64,000 nucleotides of DNA from Pyronema omphalodes (Eukaryota > Ascomycota > Pezizomycetes > Pezizales > Pyronemataceae). The stretch spans positions 256,001-320,000 of the forward strand of contig JAJJXM010000041.1 in the NCBI GenBank assembly GCA_024516155.1. Direction: 5' to 3'. The notes beneath the pieces are model-generated. The model did no database searches, was not told the DNA's origin, and saw nothing but the letters and a program-made list of their open reading frames with translations. Shown one piece after another: positions 26,763 to 37,682 of the stretch; the stretch's first letter is position 1, and every line of letters begins with the position of its first letter. Made by a program: the position numbers and the translations under genes.

Positions 26763-27106
26763 GGTTCACAGAAGAACGTGTAACGTAACAAACTCCAATG
26801 GAGGTGGAAGAAATTGGTCTTTGCACCATAAACCTAGCTTGGAAAGCTCTCATCGTATTTCCTCTTGTATCCCGCCTCAACCACCTCCACCACCAACTCC
26901 ACAATCAAAACCAAATACTCCAAGCTGCATCTAAAGGTGAAATCAAAACCTTTATTACCTCTGTTTCAGCCACGAATAGGCACTTTCCCAGTTTTCCACT
27001 CATCTAGAGTAAGTTCTACGGCATTATTTTCGGATATTAGATATACTAAAACAGGGAAAACTTAGAACACAACGCACCGTTGCATTGAAGCAAGAAATCA
27101 TCTACC

Positions 27107-28363
27107 ATGACAGAGAGAATCACAAACCAATCTAAACCGCTCTTCCAAATGGATATCATGGATGCTATATACAATGACTGCTTATGTCATGTCTGCAAGA
27201 ATGCAGACTTCGAAGACTGGACCTGGATAGACTTTATTACCGAAAGACCACGCCACAGTTACGAAATTCTAAAAACATTACGTGATGACAGTCTTGAAAT
27301 GGAAGGGAACGAAGCATTTCCTCCTAATCTCCGATGCCCCCCCGAGGATTGGAATTGTCTCATTCAAGCCTTTACAGAGAAAAGAAAAATCAGACTTCAT
27401 GGCAGGACAATTCCTGCATTTACTTCTGTCTATAATCGTAAATTCTTGATTCTTGTACATCTGAGCATTATACAGCAACAACTCAGAGAGCAAATGACGC
27501 AAGAAACTGTAGACAGATATATACCAAAGAGGGCTAAGCAGATAATAAGATCCGTCAACGATACTCCCGGTGCCACGGAACGAGAAGAGTGCAAATACGA
27601 TTTAAGTTGGTATGAGTTTGTGGAGAAAGTTCATGCTTTGACGATTAAAGCTAGAAGGATGACAGAAAAGGCCAAACAGGGGAGCGGAAAGGAGGGCAAT
27701 AAGGAGGTCAATGAGGAGGACAAAGAGGAAGACACAAAAGCGGGCAAAGAGAAGTACAACGGCACGGCTTGGATGGACTACATATTTGCCAACCCAGAAA
27801 TAGCCATTTCGAACTTCAGACAACACAATGGTGGCGATCCGTCCAGATTTCCACGACTCCTATGCTCTAATAAGGATTTTGAAATATTCCTAAAGGCTTT
27901 CGATAAACTTGGAAAGAACGACCATGTGGATTATGATGAGGAGGATGGTCACACTCTTTCATGTCAGTATCAGTGTTTATTTGCCATGCATTTCATGCTT
28001 TGTGTAAGTGAATGCATTTTGAATGAGAACCTCAGTACCGGCATGCCAGAAAAAGAAGCAATAGACCTTAAAGATCACCGGACTATGATTATCAAAAGGA
28101 CCATCAGAAACAACATCAAAGCCGATATAAGAATAGCTGAAGTTGAGATTGATAAGCGCTGGGCTGAGTTTCTGGGATACATTCGCGAGTATAAAAAAGA
28201 AGCCATGATCGCCGAAAAAATTAAAAACCTTGAATTAGATACTGAATCGAGCGGTGAAATGACTAAGGAAGGGGTGGAACAGAAGTTAAGCAATAGCGAT
28301 TATAAAAAAAAAGCGCAGAGAAGGCAAAAGGAAGGCCGAGTAAATAAGAGAGTTATGAATTGA
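27107..28363 (+). CDS. unrecognised 418-residue protein with internal duplication
   Basis: A single intact frame with a good start context (TACC before ATG). I do not recognise the family. The protein is hydrophilic, with no signal peptide and no membrane segment. Two related halves can be aligned by eye. Residues of about 43-200 run WIDFITERPRHSY, FPPNLRCPPEDWNCLIQAF, RKFLILVHLSII, and RAKQIIR with WYEFV. Residues of about 222-375 run WMDYIFANPEIAI, FPRLLCSNKDFEIFLKAF, QCLFAMHFMLCV, and RTIRNNI with WAEFL. A charged Lys/Glu linker of about 30 residues (near 200-222) joins them. The C terminus is a basic, Lys/Arg-rich tail that could bind nucleic acid. It is flanked upstream by LINE debris, so a transposon-associated or recently formed gene is possible. 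No homology search was available. Confidence 0.6.
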   Translation: MTERITNQSKPLFQMDIMDAIYNDCLCHVCKNADFEDWTWIDFITERPRHSYEILKTLRDDSLEMEGNEAFPPNLRCPPEDWNCLIQAFTEKRKIRLHGRTIPAFTSVYNRKFLILVHLSIIQQQLREQMTQETVDRYIPKRAKQIIRSVNDTPGATEREECKYDLSWYEFVEKVHALTIKARRMTEKAKQGSGKEGNKEVNEEDKEEDTKAGKEKYNGTAWMDYIFANPEIAISNFRQHNGGDPSRFPRLLCSNKDFEIFLKAFDKLGKNDHVDYDEEDGHTLSCQYQCLFAMHFMLCVSECILNENLSTGMPEKEAIDLKDHRTMIIKRTIRNNIKADIRIAEVEIDKRWAEFLGYIREYKKEAMIAEKIKNLELDTESSGEMTKEGVEQKLSNSDYKKKAQRRQKEGRVNKRVMN

Positions 28364-30209: not shown

Positions 30210-33200
30210 TTACTTTTCAAGCCTATACCGCGTCCTCCCCGCCATATCCTTTTCCACCCGAATAACTCTCGCTCCACTAACCTCTCTATGTGTCAACAAA
30301 AACGCCCTAGCCCCAATAGTCCCGCAATACTCCCTCAACCACGTCTGTAACCCTTCAATGCCACTCACATCCAACGCATCAATCACCTCATCCATCCACA
30401 AAAAGTTCGGTCTAAATTGCATCCTCGCCCTAGCAACAATAAACATGCCCAAAAACAACGCCAAATAAGTCCTGGTCAATTGCCCTCTGCTACGCTTAGC
30501 TAGTGACAGCGCCCCATCTACTGGCCTTAGCTGAAAATCCGGTGTAAGTTGAAACAGCAATAACTGCTGGGTTGACAAGAGGCCCTCAACATCATCACAC
30601 AGCGATGATAGAATCGGCGGGATAAGTGTATTAATATGACTGACATAACTTGAACGACAATGGGTTATGAATGCACCCTTCTTCGTCGCCGCATCTTGAA
30701 GTTGTGATTGCCAAAATTCTGCAAGTGAGAGCTTTTGCTTTCTAGCTGAAAGGGTGGCAGAGTTGGTGTCGAGAGAGGCGGCGAGCTGCTTTGCCCGAGA
30801 TTCAAGTTCGGCAATATGGCGCGCTCGTTCTTTGCGTTGTGAGGTAATGTAGGATAATTGCCCCTCAATCTGTGATCGCCGGTGGTTGGAGGTGTTGATG
30901 ATGTTTTCGAGCCGCCGGTACTCATCTTTGGGTACCCGTACAGCTTCTGCAGCTACGCGTTGCTCACGCATTTGATCTGAGAGATGCTTTTGGTGGTGGG
31001 AGATATTGTTGGCTAGGGCGTTGATTTTGAGGCGGTTGTATTCTTGGAGAATGGGGTCGTAAATTTTGGTAAGATCGATATCAGCCGGCTTTTCCTTGGG
31101 AGGTTCTGGAATTTCGTCTGGGATGATGCCGAAGTAGTCTCGTAGAGAGTCAACAACTCGGTTGAAGAAAGACCAGAACATTCCTTGAAGTGTCAAGGAG
31201 TGCTCAAATTCTTTCTGTCGTCGTTCTTGCTCTTGCATCATCCATTCTCTCTCTATTTCTAGCTGTCGATCTCGCTCTGCTCTGAGATTCTCGTGTCGTC
31301 GCTCTACCATACGATAGGTTTGCTGTCGTTCTGAAAGAGTATTGATGATTCTGGAAATCGGTTCTCTTTTCATTTCGACATCATTTAGAGCTTGTTGAAA
31401 CTGTTTAATCTGAGACTCGAGGATCCCGAGTTTAACTCGTAATGGGTCTAGCCGTGATTTTATTTCATCGAGTTCTTTGTTGAGGGCCTTAACCCTTATT
31501 TCTTCGTTCGCTGCTTCGGAGGATCTGGCACGCTGGTGGTATCCGTTCTCTTGAATCTGATTTTTGAGTCCACGCTCTGTATTCTCAAGCTGAAAGATTT
31601 GCCTTTCCAGATCCTATAAAAGTCAAATACGTCCAAGCAGTCTTTCATTAGATGCTTTACCTTTGTCATGAACCCTAATTCTTCGCGAATCTGGCCCAAG
31701 AAGTCCAGTCCAAACATCATATCCAGGGTCTGAGTCCTTTCCTGTTCACCAGCTGCTCTGACGAAATACTCAGCGTTATCACCGATCACAACCGTTTGTT
31801 TGAACATAGAGATATCCATGTGTAAAATATTCTCAATTAAGTACTTCGTAGTAGACGTGGCATCATGTCCATGTTCTTCAGTTTGTCCCAAAGGATCTAT
31901 AATAGTGAATGTAAGCTTCTTTGTCTTCCTCCCTCTGCGTTGGCGAATGAATGAGTATCCATTTCGAAAATCAAGTCGGACATAACACTCTATTGCGTCC
32001 TTGTACGCGATTTCGTCTGCAGGAATTCTCTTTCCCACAAATTCGCCAAAAAGGCACCAAACCACTGCTTCAATCAAAGTTGATTTCCCGGATCCATTCG
32101 AACCAGCAACTAAAAACACATCAGAACCGGGCAGAGCGTCGAGGTTAAACTTGCATGTATCCCTAACACCACGAAAGTTGTGCATAGTGATTGAAACCAA
32201 GTCACCCTGGAAGACTTTGCCTGTATTCTCTACCCGTGGTGCATTCTGTTGGTATGGTTTGATAAATTCCAGAAAAAATTCTTTCCGTTTTTCTTCGAGC
32301 TCAAGATTAATGCCCCAAGGTTTGTCTCCCTTCCTGATTCCCATAAAGCCGTTCACCATATCCGGGATAGTGTCCTGCAAACTAACAGCTGTAATTTCCT
32401 CAGAAGCCAATTGAGCCGTAGAGACTTTCTTAACATCTCTCGCCTTATATCGTACTTCAACCATATCTGCACCCATTTCAAACAACCTCTCACGAGCTTC
32501 TTCGACTTGGCTTTGTTCAACTTCGGGTCCATTTGCCATCCGAATCTGAATCTTCTTCCCGGCCACCATTTCAGGCGTAGCGCTATCCATGGCACTCCAT
32601 GGTATTTTGACAAAATATTCTGCATACGGATTCCTATGTAGCGTCCATTCGTTTTGATCAGGCCGATAGCTGACGAAACCTTTGTTCAAATCGTTCGCAT
32701 CCCCCATGTTGGACTGAATTGGCGCACCTACATACAAAACGGTTGACTCTGGATCTCCCACTGGACCATGGGTGTGGAAATGTCCAAGAAATGTGCGTTT
32801 GTATCCAGCCAGATTATCGGGTATTACACCGGCCTCGTAACATATCTGTTTGGTGTTCATAATGGCACCCAAGACGGGGCCATGGTAGAAGGCGATTTTG
32901 TCTGGCGTAACATCGGTTTTGACAAAGTCTCGCACGATGACATCGTCGGCATGGAATGGAATAAACGTGACCGGATATCCGTCCAAAACTACGTTCTTGT
33001 TTTCTGAGTAGACGCTGACCTTACCGGAACTGAGGCCAAAGGGATGCAAAGAGTTGTCTTGTCGGTTGTAGCGATTTTTCATGTCACTATAGAAAGAAGT
33101 TGTTAGTCTGATCACGCAAACGATAGCTTGGGCAGGCTGGGGAGGGATTGCTGACACTCACTGATTTCCAACCAGTAAATGAACCCTGGGATGCCATGGC

Positions 33201-33721
33201 GCTTGTATTATCCGCTCGAGGAGGTCTGTAAAAACTCGGTGGTGTGTAGGATCCGTTCCGCCTCGTACGTGGAATATATCACCCAGAAATATTACATGCG
33301 TCGGCTTTTGGCTATGAAATTCAGTAAAGAAATACTCGAAGAACTTTTCAAGTCGGGGCATCGTTCGATCTGAGATATGGACATCCGCGAGTAAGAACCA
33401 TAGCGGTTCAGTTGAAGATTGTGAGAAGGTAGGATCTGGTGGTATTAGATTGATATCGGTTGGTGTATCTGGTACCAAGCTGGGTGATTTGGTACTCGTT
33501 TTCACAGCCCTTGCCCTTGAAGTAGTTGTTTTCCTCGTGGTCTTGGGTTTGGTAGTAATCGTTGCAGGATCCTTTGCGGTAGCCGTCTTACGTCGCGCCA
33601 CAAATTTCCGTACAAGCGTGTTTTTAAATGGCGTCCCTGGATGGCAGCAGAGCAACGCGGGTCGCGTTGATGTGAACACGACTCCAGGAAGGCGTGAGCC
33701 AGACGTGAGCCTGGTTATCAT
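30210..33721 (-). CDS. single-chain Mre11-Rad50 (SbcD-SbcC) fusion, probably mitochondrial
   Basis: Three exons on the minus strand, 33721-33162, 33086-31661 and 31613-30210, encode 1129 residues. Residues 1-50 hold ten Arg/Lys and no Asp/Glu, like a mitochondrial presequence. Residues 105-310 are a calcineurin-like nuclease with D113-V-H115, GDIF at 147, GNHD at 185-188 (rebuilt exactly by splicing intron 1), H255 and GHFHTH at 288. Residues 478-660 are a Rad50-type ATPase N lobe with Walker A GSNGSGKST at 515-523. Residues 663 to about 960 are a short coiled coil. The C lobe follows: signature-like RSRGQ at 1036, Walker B FLWMDE with D1070-E1071, D-loop, and H1104. All key catalytic residues of both enzymes are present, so it should process DNA ends using ATP. 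Mre11 and Rad50 are normally separate proteins. No C-x-x-C zinc hook is present. Location is inferred. Confidence 0.92.
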
Positions 33722-34473: not shown

Positions 34474-37400
34474 TTAATCATCTTCATAATCAAAGTCGTA
34501 ACCTTCCGAATCCTCGGCTTCGACATCAACCGTTGATTCTGCATCAGGGAGGAACCCGCCTCCTGTCTCATCATTAGAAACAACCCCACCACCATCACCA
34601 TCACCACCAAGAGCAACTTTACCGTCCAAATGGGGTTCTGGCTCGATTTCTGCCTGCGTATTCACCTCGTTCTGGATAGGCTCGGTATCTTCACCGCCAT
34701 CCTCAATTACGAATCCGCCGCCAACCTCTTCTTCTTCGACCACAAATCCACCACCAACCCCTTCATTTGTAATAACTCCAACACTAGACTCTTTGTCTTC
34801 AACCATAAACCCACCGCCTGGCTCTTTGGTAACTATATCAACCACTAATCTACTACCAATTGCGGCAGGGCTATCATTAGCCATTAGCATTTCGTCATCC
34901 TCTAGTTCTTCACCTTCTTTCTGTTTCCCTTTAGCTCTTCTCCTCGATGTCCTTTTCACTACGAGCTCCTCCTCTGATCCATCGCCCTCATCTTCTCTAT
35001 CTACTGAGAAACCTCCTTCGCCAATCTCTTCCTCCCCTTCACTATCCACAAGAAATCCACCCTCATTCTCATTCTCATCTTCATACTCATCTTCATTCTC
35101 ATATTCATCCTCGTCATCGAACTCGTCCTCGGACTGAATCTTCTTCTGCATCTTTTGCTTCTTCTGTTTTTTCTGCTCGGCCTTCTTATTTTTTATCCTC
35201 TTCTCCATCAACGCAATCTGTGGCATCTCATCCGTCCCCACTCCGAGCGTCTGTCGAATCTGCAGCCTGAATAGGAACCTTTTCCATAATTTCAAAGACG
35301 CGCTTGACTTCTTTCTAATTTCCTCCCTTTCTGCCTCCCACTCAAATGCTTCCACTACAGCTCGTACTGCATCTTCATACTCCTCTGCCACTACAACTCC
35401 CTGAACCTTAGCGGTTGCCGCCCGATTCCGAAACTCGAATCCTGTAACAGCGGCGGTATAATCAACTCCTATCAACTGTGCCGCTTTTGCCGCGTTTTGT
35501 AACGGGATATGAACACCTCCCTTCGGCACCATACTCGGTACATATACATCGATATTTCCAAACTTATTTTTAGGAACCATTCCATCCTCTACGGGTGGGG
35601 GTACGTAAATCTCGGTTTGACTGTATTCAAACATGGGTTGATGTGGCCTGTCATCATCATCTTCCTCCTCCTCCTGCATCCTTCTTGGATCATCTTCCTT
35701 CCTTGCCATGGTTCTTGCCTTTGTAAACTTTCTCGGCATCTGGTCCTCCGCAACAGTTCGACCAAGTTTATACCACTGCTCTCGTGTTTTCACAACCTTA
35801 ACATCCTCCCTTCTATAGACTTTTTCCACCTTCCCTTTTCCAGCAGAAACTGTCCCGCTGCTTCGCTCGGGATATATGACCTCCCCTCTCTTCAAATGCC
35901 TCTTTAAAGCAAATATTGGATGATCCTTGAAATCCTCTATATTATTCGGCATTTTTTCATGAAGATTCTCTTTCGCAAACTCTGCTTCTTCAATCTGGTC
36001 TCTGTCCAGTTCATATTTCCTCTCAAACCGGCTCAACAGAATCTTCCACCATCGTTCTCCGCCCTTCGTAGAGCCGACCCTTAGCCTCCGAGTTTTAGCT
36101 AGTAGCCACTTCGCATACCGTCTAGTAACATCAACCGTATGCCCCGTATCCTCGAAGGCAAGGACGTAACTCATGGTGTTCAGATGATCCGATATAGCAG
36201 GCTCAAGCATCATAGGTTTACCGACGGAGTTGGTGACTAACGGATCAACACAGATCCATTTCTGGGCCGCAATATTCCAGGCTTCCACCCAGTATACTGG
36301 TCGTAGGCTTTCAACAATCTCAACAGTTTTCTTTGATACGGGGCTGGGTTTGGGAGCTTTTGGCGGAGGTGGACGCCCGGGACGTCGGAGGTTACCACGG
36401 CGACTTGGTGTACCTGCAGATGCTTTGATGTTGGCTTCAGTTTCGGGTTCTTCGACGGAGACGATTATGCGTTTCTGCGATATTAGGGGAGCAACAGGTT
36501 TTTTGGTAGTGAATGAGAAACCGAGGACTTGAAGGGAGGACACGAGGCGGGTGGTGATGCCGTGGGCGCGGAGGAGGGCACAGAAGAGTTGTGCGCCCAG
36601 ATCTCTGGAGCCCTTCATGATTCTAGAGGCCTTAATAAAGGCTTCTTTTGAGATTATTTCACTACCAACGGGAGCCTTAAAATTCTTAATTTCCTCGGGT
36701 TCTAGCCATTGGGGAGTTGTTAGGCCACGATGGGTGATCTTAAATTTTTGGCGAAAGGTTTCACAGGCTTCCTTCAGTCCTTCCATGAAGAATACTGAGC
36801 GGCGGAACTGCTTGTCTTTGGCATTGTCGTGGAGTTTGTCGACGATCTTTTGGGGTAGTATTGGACGGAGGTTTCCCTAGTAGATGGGTTAAAAGCCAGT
36901 ATACAAACGAATAGATACTCAGGATTTACCTGCACTTCAGCGTTATTACACCATCGGTTCCTTAGTCGCACGTGAGATATAAGGCATATTAAATTGAGCT
37001 TGTGGACCTCTAGCCGTATCTTACGATCGACGGCGGTTATCTGCCGCCTCTTTGGTCCTTCTTTTTTAGCTGTTGCCGCATCATGTAAGACGAGATTTAG
37101 TGCTGCAGGTTTTGCGGGCTCAGGTTGTTTTACTGGAGCTTGCGCTTGTGCTTGAAAAATATCGACAATATTCAAAGCTACAGAGAATCTAACTGTCAGC
37201 GCGGGAAGATTGCCATCTGGAATATGCAACTCACGCTTTGCGCTTAAATCTACATTCTCCCAGTCAATGTCCTCATCCGAATCCTCATCTTGCTCCTCCT
37301 CTCCGTCATCATCTTCAATCGTTGATATTTGTACGCTTGACTTCGAAGCTGATTGTGGGCTAGTCTTCTCGCTCGTTGCTTCCTGTATTTCCTCCGTTTC

Positions 37401-37682
37401 ATCCTCTACCGCAGTTTCCTCTTCAAGCTTTCTACGCTTCGTACTACCCTCTTCATCCTCTTTGATTTTATGCCTTCTTTCCCTCCTCATATCCTCTCTA
37501 ACCATCTCTTTAAAAACATCTGGTACTAGTTCCTCCTCTGCCGGTGCAGGCACCGCGCGCTTTCTAGTGGCAGTTGGGCGTGAACGTGATGGACCTGCTG
37601 TTGCATTGCGACGAGGAGTATTTGGTATATCTGCGTGATCTGAATCTTGATCCTTTTCGGTTCTTCTCCGTTTCGGCGGCAT
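34474..37682 (-). CDS. RAD4: Rad4/XPC DNA damage-recognition protein
   Basis: Two exons, 37682-36930 and 36876-34474, encode 1051 residues (1032 if a possible 57-base in-frame intron inside exon 1 is removed). Residues 1-180 are charged and disordered, starting MPPKRRRTEK. The transglutaminase-like domain spans roughly 200-520, with LGAQLFCALLRAHGITTRLV and YWVEAWN...WICVDP. The DNA-binding beta-hairpin domains follow: BHD1 at HPIFALKRHLKRGEVIYP (about 570), BHD2 around 610-680, and BHD3 at FGNIDVYVPSMVPKGG and VDYTAAVTGFEF (about 690-735). The protein recognises distorting lesions in nucleotide excision repair, normally with Rad23, and recruits TFIIH. The C-terminal 240 residues are an unusually long acidic tail with six GGF-containing repeats. 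The gene diverges from KAR5 and precedes the nuclease fusion on the same strand. Confidence 0.94.

Follow-up and report, generated by a model that had tools for sequence, protein, structure and literature searches.

The zinc hook is regarded as a hallmark of the Rad50 family, and the first processing of broken mitochondrial DNA (mtDNA) ends by mitochondria is poorly settled. The SbcCD complex of Escherichia coli and the nuclear Mre11-Rad50(-Nbs1) complex consist of separate nuclease and ATPase chains with a zinc hook. Proteins gp47 and gp46 of phage T4 are also two chains, with short arms, a retained CPTC hook, and no leader. Thirteen Mre11/Rad50 fusions were described by Yoshida, Claverie and Ogata in 2011, in Mimivirus (R555), Physcomitrella, Dictyostelium, Polysphondylium, Phaeodactylum, Micromonas, bacteria, and Bacillus phage 0305phi8-36 (PMC3175470). 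Their distribution is sporadic, and a spread by viruses and plasmids was proposed. Here, we describe a gene from the cup fungus Pyronema omphalodes (assembly GCA_024516155.1, contig JAJJXM010000041.1, positions 256,001 to 320,000; this stretch of 64,000 nucleotides is the window) that almost certainly encodes a real enzyme joining an Mre11-type nuclease and a Rad50-type ATPase in a single chain (window positions 33721-30210, minus strand). We interpret it, with a probability of about 0.7, as a predicted mitochondrial, T4-type end-resection nuclease that is additional to the nuclear pair.

By their published description, the 2011 fusions resemble the Pyronema protein in that the nuclease precedes the ATPase in one chain, and in that they lie outside the canonical clades and are additional to the canonical pair in all cellular hosts but one (PMC3175470). 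The initial annotation of the locus implied that such a single chain was new, which does not hold, as fusions in eukaryotes have been known since that paper. Its main text differs from the present case in its scope: it is silent on fungi, the hook, zinc, transit, and chloroplasts, does not treat organelle targeting, and contains 'mitochondri' once, in connection with octocoral MutS7. Apart from PMC3175470, with its fusions, none of the literature matches listed, seen as titles and starts of abstracts, concerned a fungal or mitochondrial single-chain Mre11-Rad50, which is a weak absence. The architecture is already known. What is new, as far as the literature searches tell, is that fungi and UC4 have members, that these fall into a single clade, and that this clade is sister to T4-type proteins, together with the loss of the hook and the predicted mitochondrial role.

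Gene structure and domain organization

The spliced open reading frame of 3390 nt encodes 1129 residues and has one terminal stop. Its exons follow from the spliced frame, and its introns from the frame and the alignment with the relative P0001 from Trichophaea hybrida:

33721-33162, minus strand: exon 1
33087-33161, minus strand: intron 1, 75 bp, GT...AG, located within the codon for the GNHD histidine
33086-31661, minus strand: exon 2
31614-31660, minus strand: intron 2, 47 bp, GT...AG
31613-30210, minus strand: exon 3

Removal of intron 1 rebuilds the codon CA/T of His187 within GNHD. P0001 is collinear with the three exons over residues 112-208 (61%), 207-680 (63%), and 686-1140 (48%). The exon 1 alignment overruns four bases into intron 1, which places one TGA inside the aligned part, and in the gap between the last two blocks five residues of P0001 stand opposite five residues of the window protein. 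The spliced frame and the alignment rule out two separate genes or a stop between the halves, and the single frame with two short GT-AG introns proposed in the initial annotation is retained. An in-frame stop is located five codons upstream of Met1, and the second methionine is residue 121, beyond motif I. Therefore, barring an upstream exon, the leader accompanies any functional nuclease. The chain is divided as follows:

33401-33721, minus strand: leader, residues 1-107, basic and acid-poor, a predicted mitochondrial presequence (from composition; the equivalent stretch of P0001 is disordered in its model)
32447-33400, minus strand: Mre11/SbcD-type nuclease with capping domain, residues 108-400, containing intron 1
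32243-32368, minus strand: helical pair, residues 427-468, at the presumed position of the Rad50-binding helix-loop-helix of Mre11 (transferred from the P0001 model, in which the two helices span 447-461 and 469-489)
31703-32212, minus strand: N-lobe of the Rad50/SbcC type, residues 479-648, carrying Walker A and the Q-loop
31242-31702, minus strand: first coiled-coil arm, residues 649-786, containing intron 2 (mapped from the P0001 model)
31053-31241, minus strand: coil apex, residues 787-849, lacking a zinc hook (CxxC) and containing the hydrophobic segment 802-826, LTLQGMFWSFFNRVVDSLRDYFGII
30702-31052, minus strand: second coiled-coil arm, residues 850-966 (likewise placed by means of the P0001 model)
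30213-30701, minus strand: Rad50/SbcC C-lobe with signature, Walker B, D-loop, and H-loop, residues 967-1129

All five phosphodiesterase motif types of the nuclease are intact (D113/H115, D148, GNHD 185-188, H255, and GHFH 288-291). The ABC ATPase is bipartite, with Walker A (515-523) on one side of the coiled coil and the signature SRGQ (1037-1040), Walker B (D1070-E1071), and H-loop (H1104) on the other, and its motifs are likewise intact. In Pfam, the protein matches Metallophos over 111-259, with 29 bits against a cut-off of 21.5, and AAA_23 over 485-718, with 53 bits against a cut-off of 27. These positions bear out the earlier description of a complete five-motif metallophosphoesterase followed by both Rad50-type lobes. 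The chain stops immediately after the C-lobe, without a basic tail.

The fold of both halves, the linking Rad50-binding helices, and the presequence leader are predicted. The predicted fold of P0001 matches E. coli SbcCD and nuclear Mre11-Rad50 in both halves (Foldseek/VIA); the matches are those of the model of this relative, not of the window chain, and its predicted template modeling score (pTM) is 0.48. The root-mean-square deviation over the whole P0001 chain is large because the coil arms differ; the arms of P0001 are predicted to be about 138 and 117 residues long. By sequence, the protein belongs to the Mre11/Rad50 (SbcD/SbcC) superfamily as a hook-less variant, and is not a zinc-hook Rad50.

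Single-chain relatives and the zinc hook

Protein searches identified at least 30 single-chain members, including the window protein (P0001-P0023 and P0030-P0035 being the others); each search scored only about 8000 candidates, so the count is a lower bound. The named relatives come from Trichophaea, Tricharina, Geopyxis, Rhizina, and Kalaharituber, and 23 further sequences are P0004-P0023 and P0030-P0032. The EukProt entry UC4_evm5s1447 (P0035), the record of which lacks the start of the nuclease, is read from its name as belonging to an uncultured choanoflagellate single-cell genome (PMC6792448). The relatives from Trichophaea, Tricharina, and Geopyxis keep the same conserved motifs. Besides P0029, which is a distant fused protein, the same searches yielded SbcC-like proteins that are separate chains (P0024-P0028, P0036, and P0037). 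A search for a prokaryotic source near the fungal proteins gave 82 pattern matches in genome_contigs, none of them a relative, and P0014 had no match in viral_contigs.

The zinc hook is absent from 28 of the 30 members, including the window protein, and CxxC is present in all 25 phage and bacterial comparator ATPases. Among the members, the hook is kept only in P0033 and P0034 from Rhizina and Kalaharituber, a deeply diverged single-chain form; the CQKC of P0012 lies near the head and was not scored as a hook. On the trimmed 30-row tree described below, hook presence and absence require two changes. The occurrence of two such single-chain lineages in cup fungi hints at hidden paralogy or at transfer. 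When the Pyronema genome was searched with P0034 and P0001 for a second copy, such as the hook-bearing Rhizina/Kalaharituber type, only the window locus matched.

In the window protein, P0001, P0002, P0004-P0023, and P0030, the most hydrophobic 18-residue segment of the coil falls close to mid-coil, at relative positions of 0.39-0.50 and with scores of 0.69-1.14. The window protein scores 0.78, and most of P0005-P0022 score 0.80-1.14. The peak of P0003 is at 0.35 (score 0.79), and P0031, P0032, and P0035 have neither a hook nor a mid-coil hydrophobic peak. The best segments of the 25 controls score 0.38-0.86, and in 10 of them the segment contains the hook itself. The score alone does not separate the window protein, because one of the 25 controls reaches 0.78, a point against the reading proposed here, and the hook-bearing P0033 scores 0.86 (relative position 0.56). 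What sets the window protein apart is the central position of the segment, the absent hook, and the higher values in most of P0005-P0022.

Leader and probable mitochondrial localization

The single-chain protein is an extra enzyme, because the 60.8 Mb genome separately encodes canonical Mre11 (PF04152, E 5.9e-56, C112) and Rad50 (C159), the latter identified by its reading frames, with a CKLC hook among their sequences, and not by a family search. The first 50 residues contain ten basic and no acidic residues, as the initial annotation had counted. This is the sole acid-free 50-residue segment among the 1080 in the protein, and about 0.001 would be expected per segment from composition. Twelve of the 17 members examined have at least 20 residues ahead of motif I, and basic residues outnumber acidic ones in ten of these leaders, the exceptions being P0002 (2 versus 2) and P0020 (1 versus 3). 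Basic leaders are present in distant relatives such as P0003, P0023, P0031, P0033, and P0034, and those of P0003, P0033, and P0034 contain no acidic residue before motif I. The stretches LVRKFVA (window protein), LTRRFVA (P0001), and ARSLST (P0034) bear a resemblance to the R-3 processing motif. Import of the window protein into mitochondria is plausible from its composition, and the basic leaders of distant relatives strengthen the case. We consider import probable.

Several observations weigh against import. The amphipathic helix in the window leader is weak (maximal moment 0.35), the leader of P0020 is not basic, and 16 of the 18 records of the P0005-P0022 group begin directly at the nuclease, although these may be gene calls that skip the first exon. 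Basic C-terminal tails in P0023, P0030, P0033, and P0034 could be nuclear or DNA-binding signals. Together with the strongly basic character of the window leader up to residue 80 (18 basic and one acidic residue in 1-80), the tails and the leaderless records would also fit a second nuclear or dually localized Mre11-Rad50 that works alongside the canonical complex on a special substrate in the nucleus, its basic termini serving as nuclear or DNA-binding signals. We consider such an enzyme unlikely, since the window protein has no basic tail after the C-lobe, and since the leaders of several distant members start at Met1, are acid-poor and divergent in sequence ahead of a conserved nuclease start, and thus resemble presequences.

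Relationship to T4-type phage proteins

Unrooted trees were calculated for the ATPase (41 rows), the nuclease (36 rows), and the concatenation of both (36 rows). The 12 phage and 13 bacterial comparators were hand-picked, and six of them (P0024-P0026, P0028, P0029, and P0036) were assigned to phage or bacteria by hand. Fifteen single-chain rows of the eukaryotic type form one clade, with support of 100/100 (ATPase), 98/99 (nuclease), and 100/100 (concatenated). The T4-type gp47/gp46 proteins are the sister of this clade and are not nested in it (nuclease 98/94, concatenated 98/98), and are thus its nearest sampled relatives in these two trees. The sister relation survives (98/96, 30 rows left) when six long or incomplete rows are dropped, namely those of the nuclear pair, of two bacteria, of two fused phage proteins, and of UC4. 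Grouping with bacteria is rejected by the approximately unbiased test (p-AU 0.0005 for the nuclease and 0.001 for the concatenation), as is grouping with nuclear and bacterial rows jointly (p-AU 0.015); the tested groupings were chosen after the first trees had been viewed, which makes all p values somewhat generous. E. coli SbcCD and the nuclear complex, despite their similar folds, are not the nearest relatives in the concatenated tree.

Two results limit the case for the phage affinity. The ATPase tree alone does not decide, as its support for the affinity is 89/87 (unstarred), and bacterial grouping is not rejected (p-AU 0.21). The best match of the profile among sequences in the Protein Data Bank is an archaeal Rad50 (E 8.2e-20; E. 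coli SbcC, 8e-18), and the trees are without archaea. Within that sample, shared ancestry with the T4-type proteins is demonstrated. As to the direction of transfer, we infer a viral source; PMC3175470 likewise argued for a viral origin.

A fusion of duplicated copies of the nuclear MRE11 and RAD50 genes of the same fungal lineage is highly improbable. The ATPase tree leaves the grouping with nuclear Rad50 unrejected (p-AU 0.07), but the nuclease tree (p-AU 0.014) and, more strongly, the concatenation (p-AU 0.0009) reject it, the nuclear pair being one long, incomplete row; moreover, the Pfam scan found no match to Mre11_DNA_bind (PF04152) in the window protein. Equally improbable is a degenerating mobile or viral gene without a cellular role, which the sporadic fusions and their proposed spread by viruses and plasmids might suggest (PMC3175470), since the catalytic and ATPase motifs are intact, the gene has two introns, relatives in Trichophaea, Tricharina, and Geopyxis carry the same motifs, and the neighboring frame encodes Rad4.

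Three fused phage-type proteins, ORF305 of the Xanthomonas jumbo phage XacN1, LR756501 from an uncultured 735-kb phage, and P0029, share the single chain and the identical domain order with the eukaryotic type, but retain the hook. A common origin is rejected, as one clade has p-AU of 0.0004 (ATPase data) and 3e-5 (nuclease data), and by sequence these are independent fusion events. ORF305 (L010:3917-7216) carries the annotation 'recombination endonuclease subunit' and encodes SbcD and SbcC in a single chain. Fusion is not the norm among relatives of XacN1: 16 of 17 IMG/VR loci have a nuclease frame of 336-365 residues, too short for both halves, and the remaining locus starts within the nuclease half.

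Neighboring genes

The adjoining upstream frame (34474-36876, minus strand) encodes a Rad4/XPC nucleotide-excision-repair protein with Rad4 and BHD_1-3 domains, for which we claim no functional link. The frame at 36774-37679 (minus strand), perhaps the first exon of the Rad4 gene, has no Pfam match. An open frame of 419 residues at 27104-28363 (plus strand) has no Pfam match at E 0.001.

Proposed function

The genome also encodes Mgm101 (PF06420, E 7.7e-66), a mitochondrial Rad52-like protein (PMC5176325). We propose that the single-chain protein, once imported as predicted, would likely process double-strand ends of mtDNA. Two chains would pair through their nuclease domains and through ATP-driven engagement of their heads, and ATP hydrolysis would gate the endo- and exonuclease activities on mtDNA ends that are blocked or broken. 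The product would be 3' single strands for Mgm101 as recombinase, in analogy to the initiation of recombination-dependent replication by T4 gp46/gp47. In place of a hook, the hydrophobic apex would likely provide the arm-to-arm contact, or anchor the arms to a membrane.

The mitochondrial replication set is phage-like, with a T7-type polymerase and helicase. We speculate, with low confidence, that in mitochondria of fungi, and of choanoflagellates, a virus-derived, fused, hook-less T4-type gp47-gp46 starts recombination-dependent replication and repair of mtDNA, that its hydrophobic coil apex keeps DNA ends on the inner membrane, and that it would be a second phage-type module beside the T7-like polymerase and helicase. 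The fixed 1:1 linkage of nuclease and ATPase, the short arms, and the missing hook let both the existence of a dedicated mitochondrial Mre11-Rad50 and the purpose of the hook be tested. Through its kinship with T4-type phage proteins, the phage-like replication set of mitochondria would gain an enzyme that starts recombination.
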